DNA of 64,000 bases from Owenia fusiformis (Eukaryota; Annelida; Polychaeta; Sabellida; Oweniidae): contig CAIIXF020000004.1 of assembly GCA_903813345.2 (NCBI GenBank), positions 11,802,196-11,866,195 on the forward strand, read 5' to 3'. The translations under genes and the position numbers were made by a program. Of the stretch, positions 9,280 through 62,876 are shown piece after piece. Under the pieces are notes generated by a model, which worked only from the letters and a program-made list of their open reading frames with translations, was not told the origin of the DNA and made no database searches. Every line of letters begins with the position of its first letter. Within the stretch, counting starts at the first letter, position 1.

Positions 9280-11522
9280 CAGCAGAGAACTAAAGTAGAA
9301 TATATTTAGACACACTTTTAGCCACTAAAGCAATGACGTAAGCAGACAGCATGTACATACATGGAAATACAAGTGCAAAAAGTGCTACAATGTGCGTTCG
9401 GCATACATATTAGATATATGCCATATTTTTATTGTTTACCTGTCAGCTGTCACCGTGCTAATCTCAACAATCAAGGCACTGTGATGATATAATTAAGGTG
9501 AGAACTGTCGGGCCTTTTAGAAAATAGGCATGACGAGTGAGTAAAACGTTGCAAAATTGAGAGTTTTTAAATAATAACTAAAATATGCATGTTCAACATG
9601 TGCCTTGATTTCAAATTGATAATGATGAAGACTAAACTTTTTCGAAATGTTCTTGACTTTTATACAACCACAAAAGTAGGGAAGAGAGGTTTACACGCAA
9701 TGAATTATACATGTCATGATATAGGGAGAAAATCAATAAACTCAAGGCCTGTGTTACACTTGCTAACTGTATATTGAATGCTCTTACTATCACGGGGGAT
9801 AAGCAAAACGAGGGCGAAGCCACGGACTGCGACTCGCGTAATTCAAAACGAGGTTACAACGCATTATAGCTGAACAATGGCGGTAAGTCCAAACTTAATT
9901 TGGAAGGCATGTTAGGATTTGGGGTAGATTATTGGTTTGGATAATCTACAGAATAGCTAGTATGTTCCAGTCGGTGATCAACATATTCATACTCCACCTG
10001 CAATGGCATTCTTGGTGCTCGGCTGTCCAATAGTTTAGCATGAACACAAATGAATTCGAAATCTGCCACAAAAAATGTAATTTTGTCAATATTTGTCCCT
10101 AATATACCGATTTAAACAAAGGAATCAGAAAAAACATCGAATTAATATAATTATTCATGTTCTGTTGTTACAATTACATCTTCGTGTGATATTTGGTAAG
10201 CGGAAAACGTACAATTACATAGAAAATTGGAATTTATGATAGTCGCAGTCCATCCATCTGCCCAACGCAGTCCGCGACTCAGTGTTGCTTTATATCTGGA
10301 GCTGAACGCAATCACAGCCAAAGGTAGATAGCACATGTGTGTACAGGTGTGGCCGAAATGGAGCAACTTTGGACAAAATTGAATATAAAGGGCTATTTTA
10401 ATAGACCTACGTACATCGTCTCTCAATCCATTCTGCAAATATATACAAGCTGTCAAATACAGCTGAAATCATGAATTTATGGTAGCTAGCAATATTGATG
10501 GACTGTTGGAAAGATCATCCAAAATTACATTAACTCACCAACTCTCCAATTATTTGATATTTTCCTGATATCTTAAATACTAGTTAATGTACCCTTCCCC
10601 AACAGAAAACTTTTATTGCATCATCAAAAAGTTAATTGTTTCGCATTTCTACTTCTTATAAAAAGTCTCACCACTATCCAATTATCTTTATATTTATAGT
10701 CCGGTGGCCAAGAAGGAAGGGGTCGTTTTAGGGTATAAAGTTTTTTTCTTTGCATATTCTGATAGTACTTGACATTCTTAAGTAAATTAAACAATCTGCA
10801 AAATTTTATAGGTTGAGCATTTTTTTCTGCTGACTCAGCAAATTTTTTACTTTATTTTTCAATTATTCTAATTTATCTCACTGAAAAATATATTGTGAGG
10901 TTATATTAAGCACTTATTTAACACAGACCTCTTCAAAACTCGACAAATGCATAAAATTATAATGTCTTAAAAAGTGCTGAGTCATCATTTTTTCTAATAA
11001 TTGTTTTTTTGCAGATTTATATCAATAATCTTAGAAAATCCAAGTTTTAAGATCAATATTTCACAAACTAATGCATTTGTAGGCAAAGGCAAATTGCTTT
11101 TAATTGGTTATTATCCCAGACATAGAGTGAAGTCCTCCACCCATTCGTCTGTTATCAAGATGGCCACCGCTTTAAAAATGACGGGACTATTTCGCGAAAA
11201 TATTAACTCTTTATTTTTAAACCAAAGTACTGAATATTTTTTTTTAAATTTTGGTAGTATATTCACAACATCCATCTTTTCCACATATATTCTATGTTTT
11301 TCACCCTGCCCCCCCCCCCCCGGGCTGAGTATAGGAGGGAGGGGGTGGGGAAAAAGAAATTTTCATTAATTTTGAGATCTTTCTGAAGTGTAGCTTTATT
11401 ATACTCAAATGAAAGGCAATTTAGAGTGGATTGCAAATATTGTATCATTTTTCTGATTCAGAAAAATTCAAAATGGCTGCCTAATGTAGGATTACACAAT
11501 AATTTCCTGATCCATTCAAAGT

Positions 11523-12972: not shown

Positions 12973-15555
12973 CATTCACATTTATGGGCTTCAAGACTTC
13001 TGATGAGACACACTGTATGTCTTCTGGTAAAGCTCCTAAGTAATAATTCTCAACTTTTTCTCAACTAAATTGTGTTGATTCAAGGGAGGATGGATTGGGA
13101 CAATCTGCATATTTCAAGTTTTCCAATGAGCCCCCTTGAAATTTCTGCAATCTGCAAACGCCTTAATTGTTGGGGGTAGGGTTCGAACTTCATTGCTGTT
13201 GTAGATTGTTTTAATCGCTTTATATCCACCACTGCCCTCCCAGGTGATTTTCGCTGCATGGTGGACAGATTCTGCAACTGATGGTTGTGGTTATGATGCA
13301 CAAGAAGAATATGCTATATATATCATTCCATGCCATATTCATTTGTAAGATGTTTAGCTTTAATCATCATGGTCATCATTGTGCTAGGGTCGGATGGTTT
13401 CATGTCAGCCAATGGCTAGTACTTTGTTAAGGTGGCAGGCTTAACTGATTTCTCTTTCATTGTAGTCAATCTGGTAAAGTATCCTCCATATTTGGGGATT
13501 TAATAGCTCAATATTCTTTTTAGTTGTACTGCCAATATCACCAATGTATGGGTTGACTTCCATCCATTCCAAAAGGACATGTTTGCTCCAAAATTGTTTG
13601 AAATTATCTGTATCAATCTAGATACAACAGCAGAAGCCTTGAACTCCAGCAGTATAGTCCCAAGCGATATTTGTAGAGGTAAATAATTGTTGATAACTAA
13701 GTTGGTGATTCAGTAATCTCTTAGAGGGGAAAGATCACAATTGTTATTTTTCACACCTCTATGAAAATGGAATGTTAGTATAGTCACATTTTTCGTTTGG
13801 ATGACATTTTTTGACAAATTAGTTTAAAAAGCATCATATTTTGTATCACATGATGACTTTATAAATTGAGGTACATTGAATATAATTGCATGTGCTTCTA
13901 TCAAAATATGTACTATAGGTATTATCTTTTAACAAAGTTTTTTTTATTGTAATACTATGTAATCAATCTCAAACTAGATATCAGCAACTCGCACAGATAT
14001 TAAGACATACATACATTAGAGATATATAAGAAGTTTCACAGATTTAAGCATATGAGTGACCATTAAGGGGTTTCAAAGGTATAAATCATCAAGACAATAC
14101 TATTTGAAATCTAATATAGTATCATGTAACACTACTTTGAAAAGATCTTTAAGTAATACAGAATTCCTGCTCTATGCAGCCATTTTGAATCTTAAGGCAT
14201 GAATTAGGAAAAACAATACTTTAACAGTGACCTGCTCTCACATTCCTTCAAATTGAATATAAAATACGCATACTTTGAAGATCACAAAATTATTGCGAAA
14301 TCCCACACTAGGCGGCCATTTTGAATTTCAGGAGGCCCGAATCAGAAAAATGATACAATATTTGCAATCTACTCTTAATTACCTTTCATTTGAGTATAAT
14401 AAAGCTATACTTCAGAAAGATCTCAAAATTCCTGTTTTCCAGACCCCTCCCCCCATTCACAGCCCCTGGGGGTCAGGCTGAAAACACGCAATGTATGTTA
14501 AATTAAACCTTTGTTCTCTCTATCTCTCCAAAACACATATTTCTCAGTGGTCTAATAATTTTTAATGAATGTTAACATGTTATAACTTTCAAAGTGCCAC
14601 GCCCCCTTTGAAATTAATTACATAATTATATGGTGCGATTAAAAAAAATGCTCAACATATATGATTTTGCAGATTATTTCATTTTAAAGAATACATGTGT
14701 AGCAATAGAAAAATGCACAGAAAAAAACTTTATACCTTAAAACGACCTTTAGCCTGTCAGAGGTATTTGGCAACCGGACTATTAACCCTATCCACAAATT
14801 GGTTTGTAATAAACATATTACGTTGTCATCTTGCGCTCGACTGTTCTGCCAAATACGCTATTGAATTGCCATATTTCTAGGTCTTAAACGATACAATATA
14901 GCAATTTGGGACATTGATTCAGGTAATAGATATATGTTAATCAACGTAACTTTGAATGATAATCTGGATGCTGACTTTCTTTTCCTGAAACAATAATAGC
15001 GTAGGAATATAGTTTACACTATCTTATTTATTTCGTGTTCGCGGCTGGACTGCGTTGCTTAGAATATCAATGGAGGCTGTGTTGCGTTGTTGAAATAGCT
15101 TTGTTTACTGGACTGCGTCCACTATGAATGCGCAGTTTGAATCTAATTTTCTCCTCATGAACACATTCTTTTATCAAATCATTTTCACGAATTATACTCG
15201 GAGCCTCAACTAACCTTTAGATATCAGAAACGTGTTCAAACTCCTTTCAAATGTATAGTAAATTAAATAATATACACATATTTTACAGGTAAAATCAGAA
15301 CTTTGCTACTGTTTTAGCTTGATCTGGACAACTGCTTATTTTATTATCTACAGACCAACAGTAGATACAGAGTAATATTTTGGTCACCGATTAGACACTA
15401 CGATAGCATTTAAAATACCTGGATTTCTCTATTTTGTCGGAAGAAGCAGAAGGCACTGCCGGATGTCCCTCAATTTTGGCGCTGGGCTGCGGTGTAAAGT
15501 TACGCGAGTCGCAGTCCGTGGCTTCGCCCTCGTTTTGCTTATCCCCCGTGACTAT

Positions 15556-22800: not shown

Positions 22801-25800
22801 GCCAGATTCTGTCGTATCTGGAATGATGCAAATATAAGTTGTTTGATATTTTAGTTTTATTTAAGTCACGTAATCACATCGGTTTAACATCGTTGTTGTA
22901 ATTAAATAATATCCTATTCAAAAAGGAATGGAATCTACATGGAAGAAAGGGGGCATGCCTTTGTTTGGATAAATCAATGCCATCTTGATCTTGTTTGTCA
23001 TCACCAAAATCGGGATTCAGTACGCTAGCTTCGTAGATTTTCCTGCGCAGTTGGTTTGGAGATTTCCCCATTTCATCGTGAAATAAGTTGTAGGGTACTT
23101 TAGAACTCCCCAGATCACTATACTTCATATGTGTTCCTCTGAGGTGAAAAGTGTTGTTCCAGATCTTTGACCTAAAATCGCCACTGTAATCCTGAAAGTC
23201 CATGGTTTCCAGTTCAAGAGATTCTATGGCTTTTGTGACATAGACGTGACCCTGCAGTCCCTCCTTAGTTTCAACTGCTGGAATATACCTCATCGCTCCC
23301 ATCTCAGCCAGTTTGTGGTTAATACCTAGTAAAATCCAAAATGACCCCTTTATGTCAATAACTGAATACAAAAACCAATAAACCATGCCATGAAAATTTA
23401 AATCATAGAATTCCATAGGAAGACTTCCCCTTCTCCAAATTATGATAAATCTTGATTACTGTTAAACGCTATTTTAAACATCACGTGATAGATATAATGT
23501 TTGAAGGATCTTCACACCTGCACCATTTCTTCTCGAAAATTGTATAAAACCATAACAATATCTACGATGCTAGTTTTACACACAAATTAGAATAACTACT
23601 TCTATACCAGGTAGTTTTCGGCTGTATACACGCCCCCCTATTCGGTTGGAATATTCAAATAAGTGAATTGACTGTTTGCTTTCCTTTAGCTTCCAGGCTG
23701 CATATGCGCCACCTATTCCACCACCTATCACGGCTATGTCTATTGGAATACCTGGAAATAATATTAATAATATTAATATGTAAATATCATCAAAATCAAT
23801 AATTCAGTCTAATTATTTTATGCGTCATCATTATTTGATTAATGAGATAATTAGCTTTGAAAAAAATTATTCGGTCAAATTTAAGATAAGACAGCCGTAA
23901 TAAAAAACATATAGTAAATTAATGATACCCTAGTTTCTTAACTACATAGTGTTTAAAGGTGAAATAAATAGTGGAAGGAAATCTATCTTTGACTTACATT
24001 ATTAAACATTTGACTACATTTTACACTGATTCGATGACGTTTGATTATTAGCAATATGAAAAGTTTAAACACCTTAACAATGAAATCGCAATATATACTC
24101 CTGTCCTCGAATAGCATTTAAGTTAATAAGATGAACAAAAATTGAATACTTACATTTTTCTGTAGGAGATGTAGTACCTGCCAATCGTGTGCATTTTTTC
24201 ATGCAAGGTTCTAGCGCGAATTTTGGAGGCACACCGGCATCGTCTAGGCACCTTTTCCAACAGCCACCACCACATGTGTACCCCTAAAAACAAAAACACT
24301 GGAGCAAAATACCTCTGCAAGATGATTCCAGAAGAGGTTTGATGATTTATTGATTAAGAAGTATATGTACATGTACATGTATAGCCCTGAACTCCAGGAA
24401 GGATCGCCTTTAATCGTATTTTGTATTTTCTAGTTTCTCCATAACTGATCATTATTTGCGTCCTTAATTTTTTACTGACACTTGCGGGTTCTTACAGTTT
24501 AAAGAGCGGGTTGTTACGGTTCAAAGAGCGGGTTGTTACAGTTCATCATTGCGTAGAGCGACTTGGAAATTGTGATTATGCCATCAATACATAGGCAGCC
24601 AAAGTTCACAAAATTAGTGTTTCAGCAATTAGCTTGATGTGTTTGATCCATGTGCTGTGAACAATACCCTGTATGTACAGTCTTACAGTTTCAGATGAGT
24701 AATGTGTATTGTGCATTGTTGAATTTTTGGATTGTTGCTGAATTGATGTTGATGTGTTGGACTTCTCAGTCAAGTCAAGTAAGTAAGTCAACATTCGAAA
24801 ATAAAAATCTCAAAAATCGTACATCTTTGATTTCCAAAATAATTTGTGAGGTGGTTATTGAGATGATAATACACATTTTAATGTATTAATTTTGAGTACA
24901 TCTCGAATCCATTCTCAACAAAGCGTTCTCGAAATAAGTATTCGAAATGTTTGAGTTCGGGATGGTAAAAGTACGTTAAGATATACCGCTCCTTAACAAA
25001 CTCCTTTGGGAACAAGATATAGAATCAAATTTATATTCTTCTTATTTACTCCCTGACACATGCCCATGAATGTTGCATAAGTAAATATCTCCGTTTCAAA
25101 AAAAATTGAAAACGTTGTTCTCTACAGGTGCCATTTTTTAAAATTGAAAAACAAAATTGAACATTTTGCTTTTCTAAATTGATAAGTTTCTTGGAATACA
25201 ACTTAACCGTAAACGATTTAAGTCATTAATAATATTCCCCTCAGTGAACCCATGCTGAAAAGACAGTAACCGGGTCAATATTTTGTGTTCAGCCTTGTTT
25301 TCATGACTTTTAAAGATGAGTCGACGATTATGTAGGAATTTTCATTTCCAAATGTAAGCGTGTCAACTCCTGTTTTTGCACAATATCTAGCCTTTTATAA
25401 TGATAGATCGCCAAAATCTACATGTACTTCTCAACGAGGCGATATGTTTTTAAATTTATAGATGTAAGCTATAAACTCAAACAAAAATTAAAACCACCCG
25501 CTCTATTATTTTGATTACACAAGACGAAATTTCCACTCCCGGGGAGCACTTTGGTACCACTTTGAAGAAAGATTCTTGAAAAATCGTTCGAAGTTTCACA
25601 AAAGGTTTTACGTAATTTTATTGCTTTGTTTAAGCCTCGACTTATATCATACTCAAATCCGATACCATAATTATAAATTAATAAGAAACATTCAACTCAC
25701 CAGGTTAAATGATAAACCGTTTCGAGAATTGATGATTTGAGTTAATTGTGGATATTTATGTAAATGTAAGTCGGCATGTATTCAAAAGTTAATGTACACA

Positions 25801-28800
25801 CATGATGTATGCATCAACGTGTGACTTAAATATCAATTCGTGACTATTACATTTGGCTTTCAAAAATTAAGTTGGAAGTTACAGCGGTAGGAGATTAACA
25901 AAAACGTCAATCACATCCAAATATCCGAACGACGTCAAGTATTAACAATACACTTTTCGTGCATCTCGATCAAGGCAATGTTCTGTTATCCAGCAATGTG
26001 CATTTTGAAAGAAAAAATTCACAAATATCAACAAATTTTATTGAGTAGGATATTACATTCGAAATCAAAACTTTCAAATTATTTTTTTTAACCAAGAATT
26101 GTAAGAACTTGAAACATGTTGTGAGTTTTTCAAACGGCATATCCTCATTCACGTTCTTTGACAAGGATGAATTCATTTGGAAATATGGATTTTCTTGTTT
26201 ATTCCTCAAAACTACCCTTGAAATATAAGTATGTAGGATATTACAGTGTAAATTGACACGTATTTGTTTGCTCCATATCATGAATAAATAAATGCAGTAC
26301 CGGCTTGCAATATTTGAAAACAGAAAGTTCATTCTGTATTTAAACAAGAAAAAATACATTTATGGTTGGTTTATAATGAAAAATGACAAATAACATACAT
26401 CTTTTGAAGTAGGGGTATACAGGGACACAGTGGAAAATCAGAAATTTAGGTCATATCCCAAAGATTGCTCCACCAATATGTAACAGAACATCAAAATTAT
26501 CATTTACACGTTTGCTGATAGGTTTATTGAAAATAATTAACCAGAGGTTTACTTAAATTGTGGCACCAGTCTTAGTAAATGCTGATGAACATACGAATAT
26601 CGAATGTTTACTAAGTTACTTGGCTTGACCGTTCTGCAATAATGTTTTTAAATCTAGAAATATAGCTTGGTTTTGTATTATACAAAAATCAGATATTGAT
26701 TCTGAACTAAAATTATTTCATGAAAACAGTCTAATTAAAGTATCATGAAATAAAAGCATAACAACTAGTCGGGATTAAGTATGGGTTGATTCCTCGTGAC
26801 AATATCACGGTGTCATAGCATGACGGTTACGACACCTCTGAAAACGAGATTAGACGACTACGATCACTGATTTATCCAATAAAATGGCCGCGATGGAACA
26901 GAAAACTAAGGTTGGTGCAGAAATTTCTTCTACTGTGTATCAATGAAAAAATGAACGATTTTTGTAGACATCGCATTCGGTGATGCATTTAGTAATGTAT
27001 ATTTTGAACGTATTCTTTGCAAATTGATGCCTGGGGATAACATGAAATAAGCGAAAAACTGTTGAGTTTGAAATTCAAAACTACACAAAATTTAGTAATT
27101 TGTTTATTTTTGTCGTTAGGGCATGGTCTACATCGTCTAACGACCTCGGGGTATAAAGATGTAACCTACATACGATCATAAAAAGCCAATTGAGCATTGG
27201 AAACCACCTAATTTGTTCTACTTAGACATCGCATTCGGTGATGCACTTAGTAATGTATATTTTGAACGTATTCTTTGCAAATTGATGCCTGGGGATAACA
27301 TGAAATAAGCGAAAACTGTTGAGTTTGAAATTCAAAACTACACAAAATTTAGTAATTTGTTTATTTTTGTCGTTAGGGCATGGTCTACATTGTCTAACGA
27401 CCTCGGGGTATAAAGATGTAACCTACATACGATCATAAAAAGCCAATTGAGCATTGGAAACCACCTAATTTGTTCTACTTAAGCCTTGATATTGTATTTT
27501 TAATTTGCGGTTACGCCAAAAATCGATTGACGGTTACGCGAACCTCGTTCAAATATGCATCCTAGATTCATTGTTATTAATTTTGTCATATTCATCAGTA
27601 CTTGATGCTAATTCTTCTTTTGCCTCTTCATTGCTATCTTTTTGACTTAAATTGGTTTCATTAATAAAGCAAGACACAATTTTTTCCTTGCCCTATAGAG
27701 GCTCAAACAAGAGCGTCTCTTGTGAGTCCTGAAAACAAATATAAGCAATTCAATATTCAATTTCTTACCCATTATAACAATTACATGGAAATAGGCTATC
27801 AGAACTAGCAACCTTAACTTAAAAGATGTACATGCACGTAACCGTCCGCTAAATATCTAATGTACATCTAATACAATACGGTATCGTCCATAGAATTCAT
27901 ACGTAGTCGTCAAACGACATTGCGTTTGAAAGCTTATTATTTACAATATGACCACGTTCCTGTTCTGGATTTGTCATTTTATGGCTTGTTTATACACAGT
28001 TTACTTACTGTTATTGGGTGAGTGGCTCTGAGGCACATATACTGAGAAATCACGAGAATGGACTAAAAAATATGAACTTGGACATCTCAGTCGGTAAGTT
28101 TACAGCTTATATTCCGCTTCTAGTAAACCACCTGGCAGATTTGGCCCAGCCATTATAACCATCCATATATACGTCACCGAATGGAACTAGTTAAAAAGGA
28201 AATCTTATCTAGCTGTGAATCTTGCCTACAGGCGAGAAAGAGGACATGCTGTCTTTCCCATCCGCCATTTTTTGTTATCGTTTCCGCAAAATTTTGCAAA
28301 TCGCCTTGTCGTAACCGTCATGCTATAACACCGTGAATATGATATCCTCATCATTGTTCCTTTGAATAAAACCCATATCTAATCACTCCCGATAAATAAC
28401 CGCCGTTTCTTTAAGTGTATGGAATACGTAAATCACTGTACCTGTTGAAGTGCACAAATACTTTTGCATTTTCTTCTCGATTCTTCCCCTTTGCATATCC
28501 TCCTGCAAGGTTTATAAGTATGGCCAGCAAAACCATTACACACTAAATATAATTTAACCAATTATCCAACATGATAAAGTGAGTATTTATCATGAAAAAA
28601 CCAATAGTTCAAACTTTCGAATTGAATGCCAATAAAGACTAGTCACACGGTGTGAACGAAATCACTCCATTAATCAGACATACAAGACATTAAACAATGC
28701 AACGAAAAAATACTTTCAAAATGGCCGCCAGATGAAAATAAAGTCGTCCAAAAGTAATCAGCTCTAGAATTTGGCCAAAAGGTATTTATTTCTAGAACTT

Positions 28801-29810
28801 GTATCCTCTATCATCATCATCCTAAACAAATTAGTAGTGTTCCCGAAAATGACAATAACAAGATTTAATGCAATGACAATATTTATCGAAAATGTTCCAA
28901 AATGGCCGCCAGAAAACAAAATGGCCGTTAGAAATTTTTGGTTTTATTTTCAAACAAAAAATCAACACACATAAGAAGTGGTTAAGATATTAGTTCAAAT
29001 ATTTGGGATCGCTGATTATGAATTTATAATATCATAAAATAACTACATTTTCAATGTTGTCATCGATCAAGGTCAAGGTCGAATATCGAGTTGGAGCCCT
29101 TGGAGCCAATTCTCCTTGATCAGCTCTAGAACTTTGTATCCTCTATTATATGTACGAATTTGAAGAACATCAAATTAGCGATTTTCCTAAAATTGCAATG
29201 ACTAGGTTTATCGAAAAGTTCCATAATGGCCGCCAGAAAACAAAATGGCTGTTAAAAAGTTAATCAGCCCTAGAACTTGGTATTCTCTATTATTTTTACG
29301 AATTAAAAGAAAATCAAATTAGCGGTTTTCCTGAAATTGCAATAACAAGAATCGAAAAGTTCCATAATGGCCGCCAGAAAACAAAATGGCTGTTAAAAAG
29401 TTAATCAGCCCTAGAACTTGGTATTCTCTATTATTTTTACGAATTAAAAGAAAATCAAATTAGCGGTTTTCCTGAAATTGCAATGACAAAAATCGAAAAG
29501 TTTCAAAATGGCCGCCAAAAAACAAAATGGCCGTTAAAAATGTTATCATCCTTAGTTAGAACCTCTAATATCATTATGTGTACGAAAAAAATAAGCCGTT
29601 TTCTTGAATACACACGATTGCTCAACCAACATGGCGACTATATACCACTGATGATGTGACAAAAACATTAAAAGATAACTTGTTACACAATATTTTCACA
29701 ATACCAAAGAAAACATTCAGATATCATCTCTCACTTTTATACTATTGAATTATCCTACCTAGAATTGCTGCGACGAGAATGGCAACACGTATATTGCCGC
29801 GATGCATCAT
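19856..29810 (-). CDS. Secreted flavin L-amino-acid oxidase, gene A (C-terminally truncated)
   Basis: Eight exons: 29759-29810, 28442-28502, 24154-24283, 23608-23751, 22959-23325, 22599-22817, 21939-22050, 19856-20581. Exon 1 is signal-like (MHRGNIRVAILVAAIL). Exons 2-3 give a Cys-rich segment (KSICALQQ|GYTCGGGCWKRC). Exon 4 holds the FAD dinucleotide fold VIGGGIGGAYAAWKL and the IGGRVYS motif; exon 5 opens with LAEMGAMRY, the conserved flavin-oxidase block. Exon 8 carries VCAKRVILALHRDAL and the C-terminal flavin motif VHIVGSCYSKHQYWMEGAL. Family members deaminate L-amino acids with release of ammonia and hydrogen peroxide; achacin and aplysianin of gastropods are secreted antimicrobial examples. 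About 600 residues. Exons 2-8 join in phase; the exon 1-2 joint does not (phase 1 to 2), so a small exon may be missing. Intron 5 starts with GC. The stop TAG replaces GAG of gene B. Confidence 0.85.
20736..21824. mobile_element. Foldback element in intron 7 of gene A
   Basis: Imperfect arms of about 370 bases (about 20740-21115 against 21415-21820) with termini around ATGGGCAAAT/ATTTGCCCAG. Gene B's intron 7 is only 390 bases and lacks it, although flanking intron sequence still aligns on both sides. So it entered after the gene duplication. Confidence 0.65.
24284..26805. other. Intron 2 of gene A, left part
   Basis: Mostly unique AT-rich intron. About three units of the AAAGAGCGGGTTGTTAC minisatellite lie at about 24486-24546, the same place where gene B has about 48. 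No exon seen; the 129-codon minus-strand frame at 25970-26359 has no motif and low-complexity content. Confidence 0.4.
26966..27481. repeat. ~258-bp tandem duplication inside the CACGGTG element
   Basis: Two near-identical direct copies (26966-27223 and 27224-27481), each starting AGACATCGCATTCGGTGATG. They differ at only a few bases, so the duplication is recent relative to the element. Confidence 0.75.
27549..27692 (-). pseudogene. Possible terminal exon relic carried by the element
   Basis: An acceptor-like CTCTATAG is followed by 47 open codons (GKEKIVSCFINETNLSQ...) rich in Glu, Asn and Lys, ending in TGA. No family recognised. It could be a transposon gene fragment or chance. Confidence 0.25.
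29080..29560. repeat. 141-bp tandem repeats in intron 1 of gene A
   Basis: Units recur at 141-base spacing (ATGGCCGCCA at about 29226, 29367 and 29508), each with CCTAGAACTTGGTATTCTC. Decayed counterparts exist in gene B intron 1 (about 62160-62640), so the array predates the duplication but differs in copy number. Confidence 0.6.
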
Positions 29811-58100: not shown

Positions 58101-61100
58101 GTATCATATGTTCGAAATGAAACGAAACATCTATCCGAACCCCATTGGAACAAAACGACATAAACACAACGTGCTTAGGTCTCTCAATATTGTAATTGTA
58201 CAAAGGAAAAATTGGTTGATTTTAAAAAAGTATCTTGTTAATGAAATAAAAGGTTTATCTTAATTTTTTACTTTTATTTGGGGGGGGGTATGTTTTTGCA
58301 TACTTTTTGAAAATCAACCAAAATGTGCTTTGTGTAACTATAATATTGAGAGGTTTTGGAAAATGTTGTACATGTTATTTTGTTCCGACAAGTTTCGGAA
58401 AGACATTTTGTTCTATTCTCAAGAATTGGTAGAAAGGAACAAAAAACAATTGCACTAAAAAACAAAAAAATGTTAACAAAACCAGTTATATAAAATTGTT
58501 GCCAATCAGTCAAGATTACATAAAGGACCGTGTTTTTACAGATTGTTTTCAATAATTGGTTTAAGAGAAAAACGTTGTTGAATTCCTTCACCTATCCTTT
58601 CTCAGAATACGTGTCAACCAGCGTCTATAACACAAACAAATGACGTCATTTTCATTTCAAAACAGGTTTTCAAAAACTTGCAAAAAACAAGTCTGAGTCT
58701 GGTCCAAGTCGTGATTTACCTCATTAAATTGTTTTGCATATATATATGATAATTGATTGAACAGTATATTTAAAGAAAATAAAATCCCGGGACAGTGCTT
58801 TTTCGTTCGGTGTATATACTATTTACGTCGTCTGAGTTTAACGAAACTTCTTAAATGTCAAATAAAACGCAATTAAAAATATAAACGATGATGACAAAAG
58901 AATGTGAGAGGGTGCATAATAAAGCAAATACTGGGTAGTCAGGAGCTATGGCCAGAATCCCGGGCCAGAATGCCTATTCTCGAAAACATATTGGGCTCGG
59001 TTGTTGGTTATATCCAGCTCCTGATCATCTAATATTTGTATAATATTAATATTGCATGTAGCTAATCACTAAAGGACTACAAAACATATTTGAATCTGGC
59101 TTACTGTTATCCGCCATTTTGAATGTCACATGATAAAAATAAAGCTTTGGGAACTATACATGTACATGTCCGTGAATAATTTATCAGTCGCAAATATTGC
59201 ATATTCCCGGAGCTAATAGTCTATTCTGGTAGAATTTGTAGAGAACCATAAAATAAATAACTGCGTTTCAAAAATAAAAAAGTAATTTTATACCCGGTAG
59301 TTTTCGGCTGTATACACGCCCTCCTATTCGGTTGGAATATTCAAATAAGTGTATGGACTGTTTGCTTTCCTTTAACTTCCAGGCTGCATATGCGCCACCT
59401 ATTCCACCACCTATCACGGCTATGTCTATTGGAATACCTGGAAATAATATCAATAATATAATATGTAAATATCATCAAAATCAATAATTCAGTCTAATTA
59501 TTTAATGCGTCATCATTAATTGATTAATGAGATAATTAGCTTTGAAAAAAAAAATTTGGTCAAATTTAAGATAAGACAGCCGTAATAAAAAACATATAGT
59601 AAATTAATGATACCCTAGTTTCTTAACTACAATAGTCTTGAAAGGTGGGAAATCTATATTTGACTTACATATACATTTGACTACATTTTCCACTAATTCG
59701 ATGACATTTGATTATTAGCAATATGAAGAGTTTAGCACCTTAAGAATGAAATCGCAATATATACTCTTCTCCTTGAATAGCATATAAGTTAATAAGATAA
59801 ACAAAAATTGAATACTTACATTTTTCTGTAGGAGATGTAGAACCTGCCGATCTTGTGCATTTTTGCATGCAAGGTTCTAGCGCGAATTTTGGAGGAACAC
59901 CGGCATCTCCAAGACATCTTTTCCAACAGCCACCACCACATGTGTACCCCTAATTACAAAAACACACTGAAGCAAAATACCTCTGCAAGATGATTCCCGA
60001 AGAGTTTTGATGATTTATTGATTAAGAAGTATATGATTAAGAAGTATATGTACATGTATAGCCCTGAACTTCAGAAATGATCGCCTAAATCTTAACTTGT
60101 ATTTTCTAATTCCTCCATAACTGAACATTATTTTCTTCCTTTTTACTGACACATGCGGGTTGTTACAGTTCAAAGAGCGGATTGATACAGTTCAAAGAGC
60201 GGGTTGATACAGTTCAGAGAGCGGGTTGTTACAGTTCAAAGAGCGGGTTGTTACAGTTCAAAGAGCGGGTTGTTACAGTTCTAAAAGCGGGTTGATACAG
60301 TTCAGAGAGCGGGTTGTTACAGTTCAAAGAGCGGGTTGTTACAGTTCAAAGAGTGGGTTGTTACAGTTCCAAGAGCGGTTGATACAGTTCAGAGAGCGGG
60401 TTGATACAGCTCAGAGAGCGGGTTGTTACAGATCAGAGAGTGGGCTGTTACAGTTCCAAGAGCGGGTTGATACAGTTCAGAGAGTGGGTTGTTACAGTTC
60501 AAAGAGCGGGTTGTTACAGTTCCAAGAGCGGGTTGATACAGTTCAGAGAGCGGGTTGTTACAGTTCAAAGAGCGGGTTGTTACAGTTCAAAGAGCGGGTT
60601 GTTACAGTTCCAAGAGCGGTTGATACAGTTCAGAGAGCGGGTTGATACAGCTCAGAGAGCGGGTTGTTACAGTTCAGAGAGCGGGCTGTTACAGTTCCAA
60701 GAGCGGGTTGATACAGTTCAGAGAGTGGGTTGTTACAGTTCAAAGAGCGGGTTGTTACAGTTCCAAGAGCGGGTTGATACAGTTCAGAGAGCGGGTTGTT
60801 ACAGTTCAAAGAGCGGGTTGTTACAGTTCAAAGATCGGGTTGTTACAGTTCCAAGAGCGGTTGACACAGTTCAGAGAGCGGGCTGATACAGCTCAGAGAG
60901 CGGGTTGTTACAGTTCAGAGAGCGGGCTGTTACAGTTCCAAGAGCGGGTTGATACAGTTCAGAGAGCGGGTTGTTACAGTTCAAAGAGCGGGTTGTTACA
61001 GTTCCAAGAGCGGGTTGATACAGTTCAGAGAGCGGGTTGTTACAGTTCAAAGAGCGGGTTGTTACAGTTCCAAGAGCGGTTGATACAGTTCAGAGAGCGG

Positions 61101-62876
61101 GTTGTTACAGTTCAGAGAGCGGGTCGTTACAATTTAAAGAGCAGGTTGTACAGTTTCAAGAACGGGTTGTTACAGTTCAAAAAACGGGTTGTTACAGTTC
61201 AAAGAGCGGGTTGTTACAATTCATCATTGCGTAGAGCGATTTGGAAATTGTGATTATACCATCAATACATAGGCAGCCAAAGTTTACAAGTGTTCCAGCA
61301 ATTAGCTTGATGAGTTTGATCCATGTGCTGTGAACAATATCCTGTTACAGTCTTACAGTTTCAGACGAGTAATCGATTGTGCATTGTTGAATTTTTAAAT
61401 TGTTGCTGAATTGATGTTGATGTGTTGGATTTATACAATGACGTTTTTAAATATAGAAATATAGTTTGGTTTTGTGTCATACAAAAATCAGATATTGCTT
61501 CTGAACTAAAATGATTTCATGAAAACAGTCATAATTAAAGTATCATAAAATAAAAGCTTAACAACTAGTCGGGATTTAATATGGGTTGATTCCTCGTGAC
61601 AATATGATATCCTCATCATTGTTCCTTTGAATAAACCCCATATCTAATCACTCCCGATAAATAACCGCCGTTTCTTTAAGTGTATGGAATACGTAAATCA
61701 CTGTACCTGTTGAAGTGCACAAATACTTTTGCATTTTCTTCTTAGTTCTTCCCTTTTGCATATTCTCCTGCAAGGTTTATAAGTATGGCCAGCAAAACCA
61801 TCAGACACTAAATATAATTTGACCAATTATCCAACATGATAAATTGATAATTAATTTATCATTAAAAACGCAACGGTTCAAACTTTTGAATTCAATGCCA
61901 ATAAAGACTAGTCACACGGCGTGAACGAAATCACTCCATTAATCAAACATTAAGACATTAAACTACTGTATGCAATGAAAAAATACTTTCAAAATGGCCG
62001 CCAGATGAAAATAAAGTCGTCCTAAAGTAATCAGCTCTAGAATTTGGCCAAAAGGTATTTATTTCTAGAACTTGTATCCTCTGTCATCATCATCCTAAAC
62101 AAATTAATAGTTTCCCCGAAAATGACAGTGACAAGATTTAATGCAATGACAAGATTTATCGAAAATGTTCCAAAATGGCCGCCAGAAACCAAAATGACCG
62201 TTATTTTTTTTTACTTCAAAATTTGAATCGCGAGTTTTGGCCTTATTTCATTACAAAAAATTCAACACACACAAGAAGTGATTAAGATATTGATTCAAAT
62301 ATTTTGGACCGCTGATTATGAATTTATAATATTAGAAAATAACGACATTGTCAATGTTGTCATCGATCAAGGTCAAGGTCGAATATCGAGTTGGAGCCCT
62401 AGAACTTTGTATCCTCTATTATGTGTACGAATTTGAAGAAAATCAAATTAGCGATTTTCCTTAAATTCTAAAATGGCCGCCAGGAAAAAATGGCAGTCAA
62501 AAAGTTAATCAGCCCTAGAACTTGGTATCCTCTATTATTTTTACGAATTAAAATAAAATCAAAAACAAAAAACAGAAAACAAAATGGCCGTTAAAAAGGT
62601 TATCAGCCCTAGAACCTCTAATATCATTAAGTGTACGAATTAAAATAAAATAAGCATTTTTCTTGAATACCCAATCACGATCGCTCAACCAACATGACAA
62701 CTATATAACACTGATGGTGTGACAAAAACATTAAAATATAATTTGTTACACAATATTTTCACAATACCAGAGAAAACGTTTAGATATCATCTATCACTTT
62801 TAGACTATTGAATTAACCTACCTAGAACTCCCAGCACTGCGACTAGAATGGCAACACGTATATTGCCGCGATACAT
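37132..62876 (-). CDS. Secreted flavin L-amino-acid oxidase, gene B (full-length paralogue)
   Basis: Eight exons match gene A in number and phase: 62822-62876, 61707-61767, 59820-59949, 59294-59437, 56437-56803, 56073-56294, 38320-38431, 37132-37929. Exon 1 is signal-like (MYRGNIRVAILVAVLGVL), exon 2 gives RICKREELRRKCKSICALQQ, and exon 3 CGGGCWKRCLGDAG. Exon 4 is identical in protein to gene A (VIGGGIGGAYAAWKL). The C-terminal flavin motif reads VHIVGSCYSTHQHWIEGAL. It ends with a basic tail (RVDRRRRGVYSREYENIPRWT) missing from gene A. All coding exons are open, so the gene looks functional. Intron 5 begins with GC as in A, intron 6 is 17.6 kb, intron 4 carries two transposons and intron 2 a long minisatellite. 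Predicted secreted, hydrogen-peroxide-producing amino-acid oxidase; substrate preference cannot be read. The exon 1-2 phase problem is shared with A. Confidence 0.85.
39080..39385 (+). pseudogene. C2H2 zinc-finger fragment
   Basis: Open sequence gives SKLAVHARGH, then a full finger FDCDICKSKF...LKKHIQRKKC, then a degenerate FEYEKCDCKFKRKSELTYH. A G-run at 39293-39306 shifts the frame, after which VKCPDCEGVFNRG follows in another frame. A small ATGGCGGACGGCAAG start-like sequence lies at 38919. It sits in intron 6 of gene B on the opposite strand, so it is probably a captured or transposon-borne gene fragment. Confidence 0.55.
39648..39920. repeat. Dispersed segment, copy 2
   Basis: Same orientation and strong match to 12140-12420 (TTAATGGTTGAGAAATAGGG). 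Here it lies downstream of the zinc-finger fragment, suggesting one element type carried both. Confidence 0.5.
41430..41500 (-). repeat. tRNA-like SINE in the left arm
   Basis: Minus-strand GGCCTCATGGGCTACGTGCC-like A box (here GGTCTCATGG) and a weak B box (TCGATCGAGACCC) about 60 bases apart. The right-arm copy is at about 51790-51870 on the plus strand. Too degenerate for a tRNA. Confidence 0.35.
41568..45109. mobile_element. 3.54-kb TA-flanked element with self-palindromic ends
   Basis: The 25-bp termini (AATACAACTCGTCAGTTGTA...) are perfect inverted copies at 41568-41592 and 45085-45109, and each is itself a hairpin (ATACAACT/AGTTGTAT). TA flanks both sides. The uninterrupted right arm of the giant repeat supports insertion. 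No coding frame recognised. The interior includes a TGACCTTTGACC-rich stretch, a GACAGACAGACC patch near 43440 and a tRNA-like B box GGTTCGTATCCC near 41640. Confidence 0.6.
44583..44700. mobile_element. ~118-bp foldback MITE
   Basis: ATGCCTGGGTCACATTTGCT at the left pairs with AGCAAATGTGACCAAGGCAT at the right. A relic with GGCCGGCGCCC and TGTGGCCAAGGCATTA lies near 52520-52560. Very compact, no coding capacity. Confidence 0.6.
45118..45913. mobile_element. 0.8-kb CGTTC-rich element with CTATCACACCAAAC termini
   Basis: Ends CTATCACACCAAACTAGTTC and its near-perfect inverse (20/21) bracket 796 bases dense in ACGTT, GAACG and CGTTC words. An internal second copy of the left end begins at 45505, about 386 bases in, so the body is a two-unit direct repeat. 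A relic (ACACCAAACTTGTTCTCAC) lies near 52600. No coding frame. Confidence 0.6.
45926..47899. other. Inner part of giant repeat and unique spacer
   Basis: No gene seen. 47570-47850 is a direct, diverged copy of 42800-43065 (shared GAGCCACCT-GTGGTGA-type and TGGTAACTACCTGCTCGCAT). GATGCGAGTAGAAAT occurs at 47408 and 47884. Confidence 0.4.
47930..50460. repeat. Cluster of nested palindromes
   Basis: Four modules. (1) 48190-48345 and 50285-50436 are hairpins with GGATACAGGGAATATCCC arms of ~65 bases; a half copy is at 49140-49215. (2) 48480-48720 recurs directly at 49525-49765 (CTCTCGCTACGCTC, CGTGCAGATATCATATCC). (3) 48780-48925 has GATATTCGATGGTTT three times in each orientation. (4) AGCGGGACATACG and GCGGGCAGATATAG small hairpins lie near 49400 and 49930. 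A T-rich low-complexity stretch covers 49220-49400. Confidence 0.65.
48917..49133. mobile_element. Solo arm of the Tc1-like element
   Basis: Matches the right terminal repeat of the element at 56970-57850, ending GGAGGGGAGTG followed by TA. The other arm is missing. Confidence 0.6.
50461..51449. other. Intron 6 of gene B, no gene seen
   Basis: AT-rich sequence without motifs. The frames at 50620-50832 and 51033-51221 have no splice support. Confidence 0.3.
51907..54991. mobile_element. 3.09-kb TA-flanked insertion in the right arm
   Basis: The left arm of the giant repeat reads GTTGTCAAACTATAATAAG without a break (as reverse complement). In the right arm this is interrupted: ...ACTATAA-TA-CAGTGGTTTC at 51905 and GAAAGCCCAG-TA-ATAAG at 54992. 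A TA duplication suggests a Tc1/mariner-type or similar element, though the ends are only loosely inverted. A mariner-like ACAGGGTGTTCCAAAAGTAA lies inside near 52363. Confidence 0.6.
53620..53834 (+). CDS. Exon-like ORF of unknown function
   Basis: Opens after a splice-acceptor-like AAAATTAG and closes at ACAG|GTACTC. It encodes about 71 residues in one frame (ILRKSRRHARRILETR, then VPLTPVRNYIHNL, then LSRLRLDKEELLNLI). Composition is charged and coding-like, unlike the AT-rich surroundings. I do not recognise the family. It lies inside the 3.09-kb insertion, so it may be part of a transposon gene or a captured exon. Chance cannot be excluded. Confidence 0.35.
56970..57850. mobile_element. 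Tc1/mariner-like element with ~220-bp TIRs in intron 4 of gene B
   Basis: Ends CACTCCCCTCCATAAGTTTG and its inverse are flanked by TA (56968-56969, 57851-57852). The arms extend about 220 bases each. No transposase frame in the 450-base centre. A mariner-end-like GTGGTCCAAAAAATGGGACA lies just outside at 56897. Confidence 0.7.
57915..58605. mobile_element. Foldback family FB1, copy 2
   Basis: A direct copy of 32891-33617 with the same palindromic arms (CTCTCAATATTGTAATTGTA and inverse). Lies in intron 4 of gene B, absent from the 282-base intron 4 of gene A. Confidence 0.6.
58606..59293. other. Intron 4 of gene B, remainder
   Basis: No exon or motif seen. Gene A lacks this stretch. Confidence 0.3.
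60157..61222. repeat. 22-bp minisatellite, ~48 units, with 241-bp higher-order period
   Basis: The unit starts TTCAAAGAGCGGGTTG and continues to TTACAG (22 bases). A variant unit lacking one G (AGAGCGGTTGA) recurs at 60361, 60602, 60843 and 61062, i.e. spacings 241, 241 and 219. So a block of eleven units (ten of 22 plus one of 21) was itself duplicated. Because 22 is not a multiple of 3, all frames stay open and give artefactual repetitive proteins. It lies in intron 2 of gene B. Confidence 0.9.
62150..62640. repeat. Decayed 141-bp-type repeats in intron 1 of gene B
   Basis: AATGGCCGCCAG and CCCTAGAACTTGGTATCCTC recur, corresponding to the array at 29080-29560 in gene A but with fewer and more damaged units. 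Confidence 0.5.

Follow-up and report, generated by a model that had tools for sequence, protein, structure and literature searches.

How did a 1,530-bp insertion with CACGGTG ends come to lie beside one of two paralogous genes, and what kind of transposase moved it? We analyzed a window of 64,000 nucleotides (C4:11802196-11866195 of the 498-Mb host genome) in which the insertion lies beside gene A and is absent from the matching place beside gene B. The original prediction was that inverted 28-bp ends and an AATAT duplication mark a transposition, and that the element is a non-autonomous member of a RAG/Transib-like family.

We delimited the element at 26806..28335 from its ends, its flanks, and its alignment to gene B. 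The left terminal inverted repeat (26806..26834, + strand) begins with CACGGTG and has the sequence CACGGTGTCATAGCATGACGGTTACGACA; the right one (28307..28335, - strand) is the inverse of CACGGTGTCATAGCATGACGGTTACGACA. The predicted ends are real, and they form a 29-bp inverted pair with one mismatch, or a 30-bp pair with 97% identity if one flanking base per side is added. AATAT adjoins the element on the left (26801..26805) and on the right (28336..28340). The inverted repeats and the inner GGTTACG sites (described below) are the only features to which we give a strand.

The flank of gene B contains a single AATAT (61601..61605), and both flanks of the element align to it without interruption, as had been claimed. 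On the left, positions 26637-26805 align to 61436-61605 (92% identity), and on the right, positions 28336-29318 align to 61601-62563 (85% identity). The two alignments overlap by exactly 5 bp, which are AATAT. Because the flank matches overlap by just the five duplicated bases, they indicate an insertion with target duplication. Two paralogs alone do not polarize the direction of change, and another account would be that gene A gained nothing, the element having been removed from gene B by gene conversion or a precise deletion. This is extremely improbable: gene B keeps exactly one AATAT, without a footprint, and 5-bp duplications flank not only the window copy but 43 of the 47 complete copies of its family (see below). 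Insertion beside gene A is supported by the empty site, by the hundreds of copies in the genome, and by these exact duplications.

The two gene neighborhoods differ in other ways as well. About 1.9 kb beside gene A (24765-26636) has no counterpart in gene B near 61433-61435; its edges are not clean, and either a rearrangement or a further insertion seems to account for it. Next to gene B, a 22-bp repeat forms a minisatellite of about 49 units (60155-61223), of which the matching spot beside gene A has only 2.8 (24484-24545). The minisatellite coincides with a GC-skew spike, and the long open frames found there are probably spurious. One reading frame of the window matches flavin amine oxidases (PF01593).

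We used the 26-bp end, with up to two mismatches, to examine the host genome and found 837 ends (416 forward and 421 reverse), whereas the reversed control had none in either direction. This count excludes a chance origin of the ends. Neither viral nor prokaryotic contigs contain an exact copy of this 26-mer. We examined 82 family loci in part, plus one extension (83 fetched stretches). These were chosen for the absence of a listed exact mate end nearby (40 loci), as listed end pairs (20), for inner flanks that differ at two test bases (2), or from the 40 best left-end matches (20, read only ~0.7 to 2.6 kb inward). The bulk of them belong to the first 100 ends in the list (C1 to early C4) or to those 40 best matches, and for most the sequence covered reaches just 1.5-3 kb inward of the end. 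Together with the window, they yielded 47 complete copies with ungapped ends, which range from 598 to 1,982 bp. CAC starts all 47 of the left ends and 46 of the right ends, and CACGGTG starts 40 and 44 of them, respectively. The longest open frame in any of the 47 copies is 114 amino acids, which supports the claim that these elements are non-autonomous.

Some family copies lie close to host reading frames. The copy at L015, which we excluded from the 47 because of an indel in its end, is close to a host frame that resembles a forkhead transcription factor, and another copy is 35 bp from a host frame (L086, 3201-4625) that resembles a G-protein-coupled receptor. Both resemblances were judged by eye only.

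A consensus built from 18 copies has a length of 1,270 bp, and the window element corresponds to this ~1.27-kb unit plus an internal tandem duplication of 258 bp (26965..27222 and 27223..27480). Other copies carry one 258-bp unit: in examples on C12, C7, and C6, the stretch that matches query positions 1-164 is followed directly, at the next base, by the stretch that matches 423-1540. With one unit removed, the window copy is 96.8% identical to the consensus. The two subterminal regions of the family share an AAAATGG...GATGG block. GGTTACG had been described as repeated near both ends of the element. It occurs five times in the consensus, twice in the inverted ends and three times inside. The inner sites are over-represented (3 seen versus 0.08 expected under a first-order Markov model of the inner part; 0 of 5,000 simulations reached 3). 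Since they are at positions 447, 470, and 775 of 1,270, only the sites within the inverted ends are near the ends, so the repetition stands and the placement holds for those two sites alone. Two inner sites of the window copy (27503..27542, + strand) are possible transposase-binding sites.

To examine how the family chooses its targets, we tabulated the duplications. An exact 5-bp duplication flanks 43 of the 47 complete copies, and none of the 43 extends to 6 bp; other lengths are not in the majority. The four copies without an exact 5-bp duplication are L010, L017, L097, and L112. Outside the 47, L015 also has an exact duplication, with ATAAG on both sides.

Not all of these copies are independent insertions. 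Among the 43 exact copies, 19 have the same flank; most of these belong to the ~800-bp class. The common flank implies that these copies multiplied within a larger repeat and not by their own insertion. Genome-wide, this common flank holds 79 ends (39 forward and 40 reverse, with at most two mismatches; 0 in the control). The flank joined without the element was found at 17 sites (2 exact and the rest with one or two mismatches; 1 in the control). Among the copies that we compared, similarity extends for at least 0.7-0.8 kb rightward and 0.7-1.3 kb leftward of the element. Examples of the larger repeat, with the ~800-bp form at a fixed site, are L085 (about 1-1678), L007, L002, L012, and L009.

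After we grouped copies with similar flanks, the 43 exact copies represented 24 independent insertions. Their targets have the palindromic consensus ATWAT and are 16% GC, versus 40% in the flanks. With both strands counted, A1, T2, A4, and T5 are each present in about 70%. T2 and A4 occur together in 11 of the 24 insertions, and A2 with T4 in none.

Three criteria were applied to the family loci: lists of open frames (for some loci), the longest frame (for the 47 complete copies), and tblastn searches with pieces of Hztransib and of hAT transposases. No transposase was recognized in the 82 partly read loci and the extension. The proposed search for longer, transposase-encoding copies thus found hundreds of ends and, in the part examined, no recognizable transposase; nor was an unrelated transposase recognized in any copy of that part. 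Since we read only some of the 837 ends, failure to find an autonomous copy does not show that it is absent. In four places, an exact end is followed by sequence that differs, at two test bases, from either of the known inner flanks. Two of these were examined and are ordinary family copies, and the two on C10 resemble a deleted left end.

Several of the long gaps within copies proved to be other repeats. The gap in L008 is a LINE, and the adjoining protein, which we considered as a transposase, is a LINE ORF. The gaps in L094 and L107 contain LINE-like reading frames, as judged by eye. The insert of the 1,982-bp copy (L065), another candidate for a transposase carrier, is mostly a repeat that is also found in the window.

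L022 and L008 also appear, by eye, to share a LINE-like element. L022 has open frames of 492 and 1,196 amino acids, and the C-terminal piece of the 492-aa frame has 108 matches in the genome and no Pfam match. At L013 (413-2853), a family copy is interrupted by a 2.4-kb insert. The matches on the two sides of this insert share 5 bp of element sequence, and parts of the insert are 98-100% identical to window positions 9790-10696, 14782-14960, and 15046-15552.

Which enzyme moved the family? The resemblance to Transib that was originally noticed is real: CAC termini together with consistent 5-bp duplications match the description of Transib and RAG-like transposons, including those of protostomes, in the part of PMC7204232 that covers them. 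Other evidence points away from a Transib/RAG1-like transposase. The RAG1 model (PF12940) has no match in the genome, although it was likewise silent in every control genome. Pieces of Hztransib of 51 and 169 amino acids, used without a positive control, also have no match in the genome, and a tblastn search of the 83 fetched stretches and the window with the 169-aa piece yielded no match at E = 0.1. A degenerate pattern for a Transib motif had 8 matches versus 5 in the control.

The targets are also unlike those of known Transibs. The target motif of the Drosophila Transibs hopper and transib2 is given as CCANTGG in an excerpt of PMC3276498, and this motif (which is not strictly defining) does not fit ATWAT; A2 with T4 is missing from all 24 insertions. 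The Hztransib insertion duplicated GCTCG (from a section of PMC1852546), in contrast to the A/T-rich family target. The end consensus of protostome RAG-like elements, CACTWMCAAACKTYKBB (from the section of PMC7204232 on these ends), does not fit the family end when compared by eye. In addition, the relevant portion of a mollusc survey (PMC10294476) records one Transib; this would be relevant only for a molluscan host, which is no more than a guess from the look of the genes nearby. Membership in a RAG/Transib-like family is not supported, and we consider a Transib/RAG1-like enzyme unlikely. It is more doubtful still that the family was moved by an undescribed or RAG/Transib-related transposase, specific for CACGGTG ends and ATWAT targets, that has since been lost or was not reached by our search.

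Instead, the enzyme could be a hAT5-type transposase, that is, a hAT that makes 5-bp rather than 8-bp duplications. Families with 5-bp duplications are known by this name in the portion of PMC12730594 that treats them; the hAT-5 of PMC6004678 is distinct, as it has 8-bp duplications in the text available from that paper. The T/A-symmetric target of our family is reminiscent of hAT elements: T2 and A4 recall the hobo target motif, NTNNNNAN (excerpt of PMC3276498), if targets can be likened across duplication lengths.

The host genome does encode hAT transposases, with 138 matches to PF05699. Among 40 of these matches that we screened, none had a 3' flank (1.5 kb each) that ended in the family's inverted repeat; in one flank (L051), a copy of the family points in the opposite direction. 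In five of the six hAT loci that we read more fully, the ends are of the TAG type and the duplications are 8 bp long. The remaining locus (L092) is a weak candidate only, with a 5-bp AAAAT beside CATGC-type ends (2 mismatches in 12) that are unlike the ends of the window family. When we compared four hAT frames (from L087 and L089) to the 83 stretches and the window using tblastn, the only match was a weak one, in L005 (E = 0.041). The rule for hAT termini is YARNG, and the family's CACGG breaks this rule at base 3. No hAT transposase was linked to the family ends in this screen.

Two hAT families have near-identical copies. The copies at L087 and L088 are 99.98% identical, and those at L089 and L090 are 99.8% identical; both families have TAG-type ends and 8-bp duplications. 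Given their near-identical copies, they were probably active recently.

Overall, hAT5 fits at least as well as RAG/Transib and is equally unproven. As a single guess for the mobilizing enzyme, we prefer a hAT5-type transposase, which is plausible though short of an even chance; another or an undescribed enzyme with a 5-bp stagger is just as plausible, and a Transib/RAG-type enzyme has the smallest share. We rejected IS481EU on account of its 4- or about 15-bp duplications and its T-type ends (as described in a section of PMC10045372).

Whichever enzyme is involved, the window element is very probably a copy of a non-autonomous (MITE-like) cut-and-paste DNA transposon. Like other non-autonomous DNA transposons and MITEs, the family has inverted ends, duplications of fixed length, hundreds of copies, and, in the complete copies that we read, no long frame or transposase gene (from open-frame lengths and from tblastn with Hztransib and hAT pieces). 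MITEs are usually shorter than the 0.6-2.0 kb of these complete copies, and an autonomous partner was not among the loci that we read. We regard it as a putatively new family. Since no cognate transposase was found, we infer that it moved in trans. A transposase supplied from elsewhere would bind the 29-bp ends, and might also recognize GGTTACG and the AAAATGG...GATGG block. It would then excise the element and join it to an A/T-rich target with a 5-bp stagger, and repair would leave AATAT duplicated.

At present, what we have is a MITE-like family that is well documented and for which the empty site gives an unusually clean proof of insertion. The family would have greater importance only if its transposase proved to be related to RAG/Transib: a heptamer-like CACGGTG end combined with an A/T-rich target would, if the link were true, widen the known biochemistry of the ancestors of RAG.
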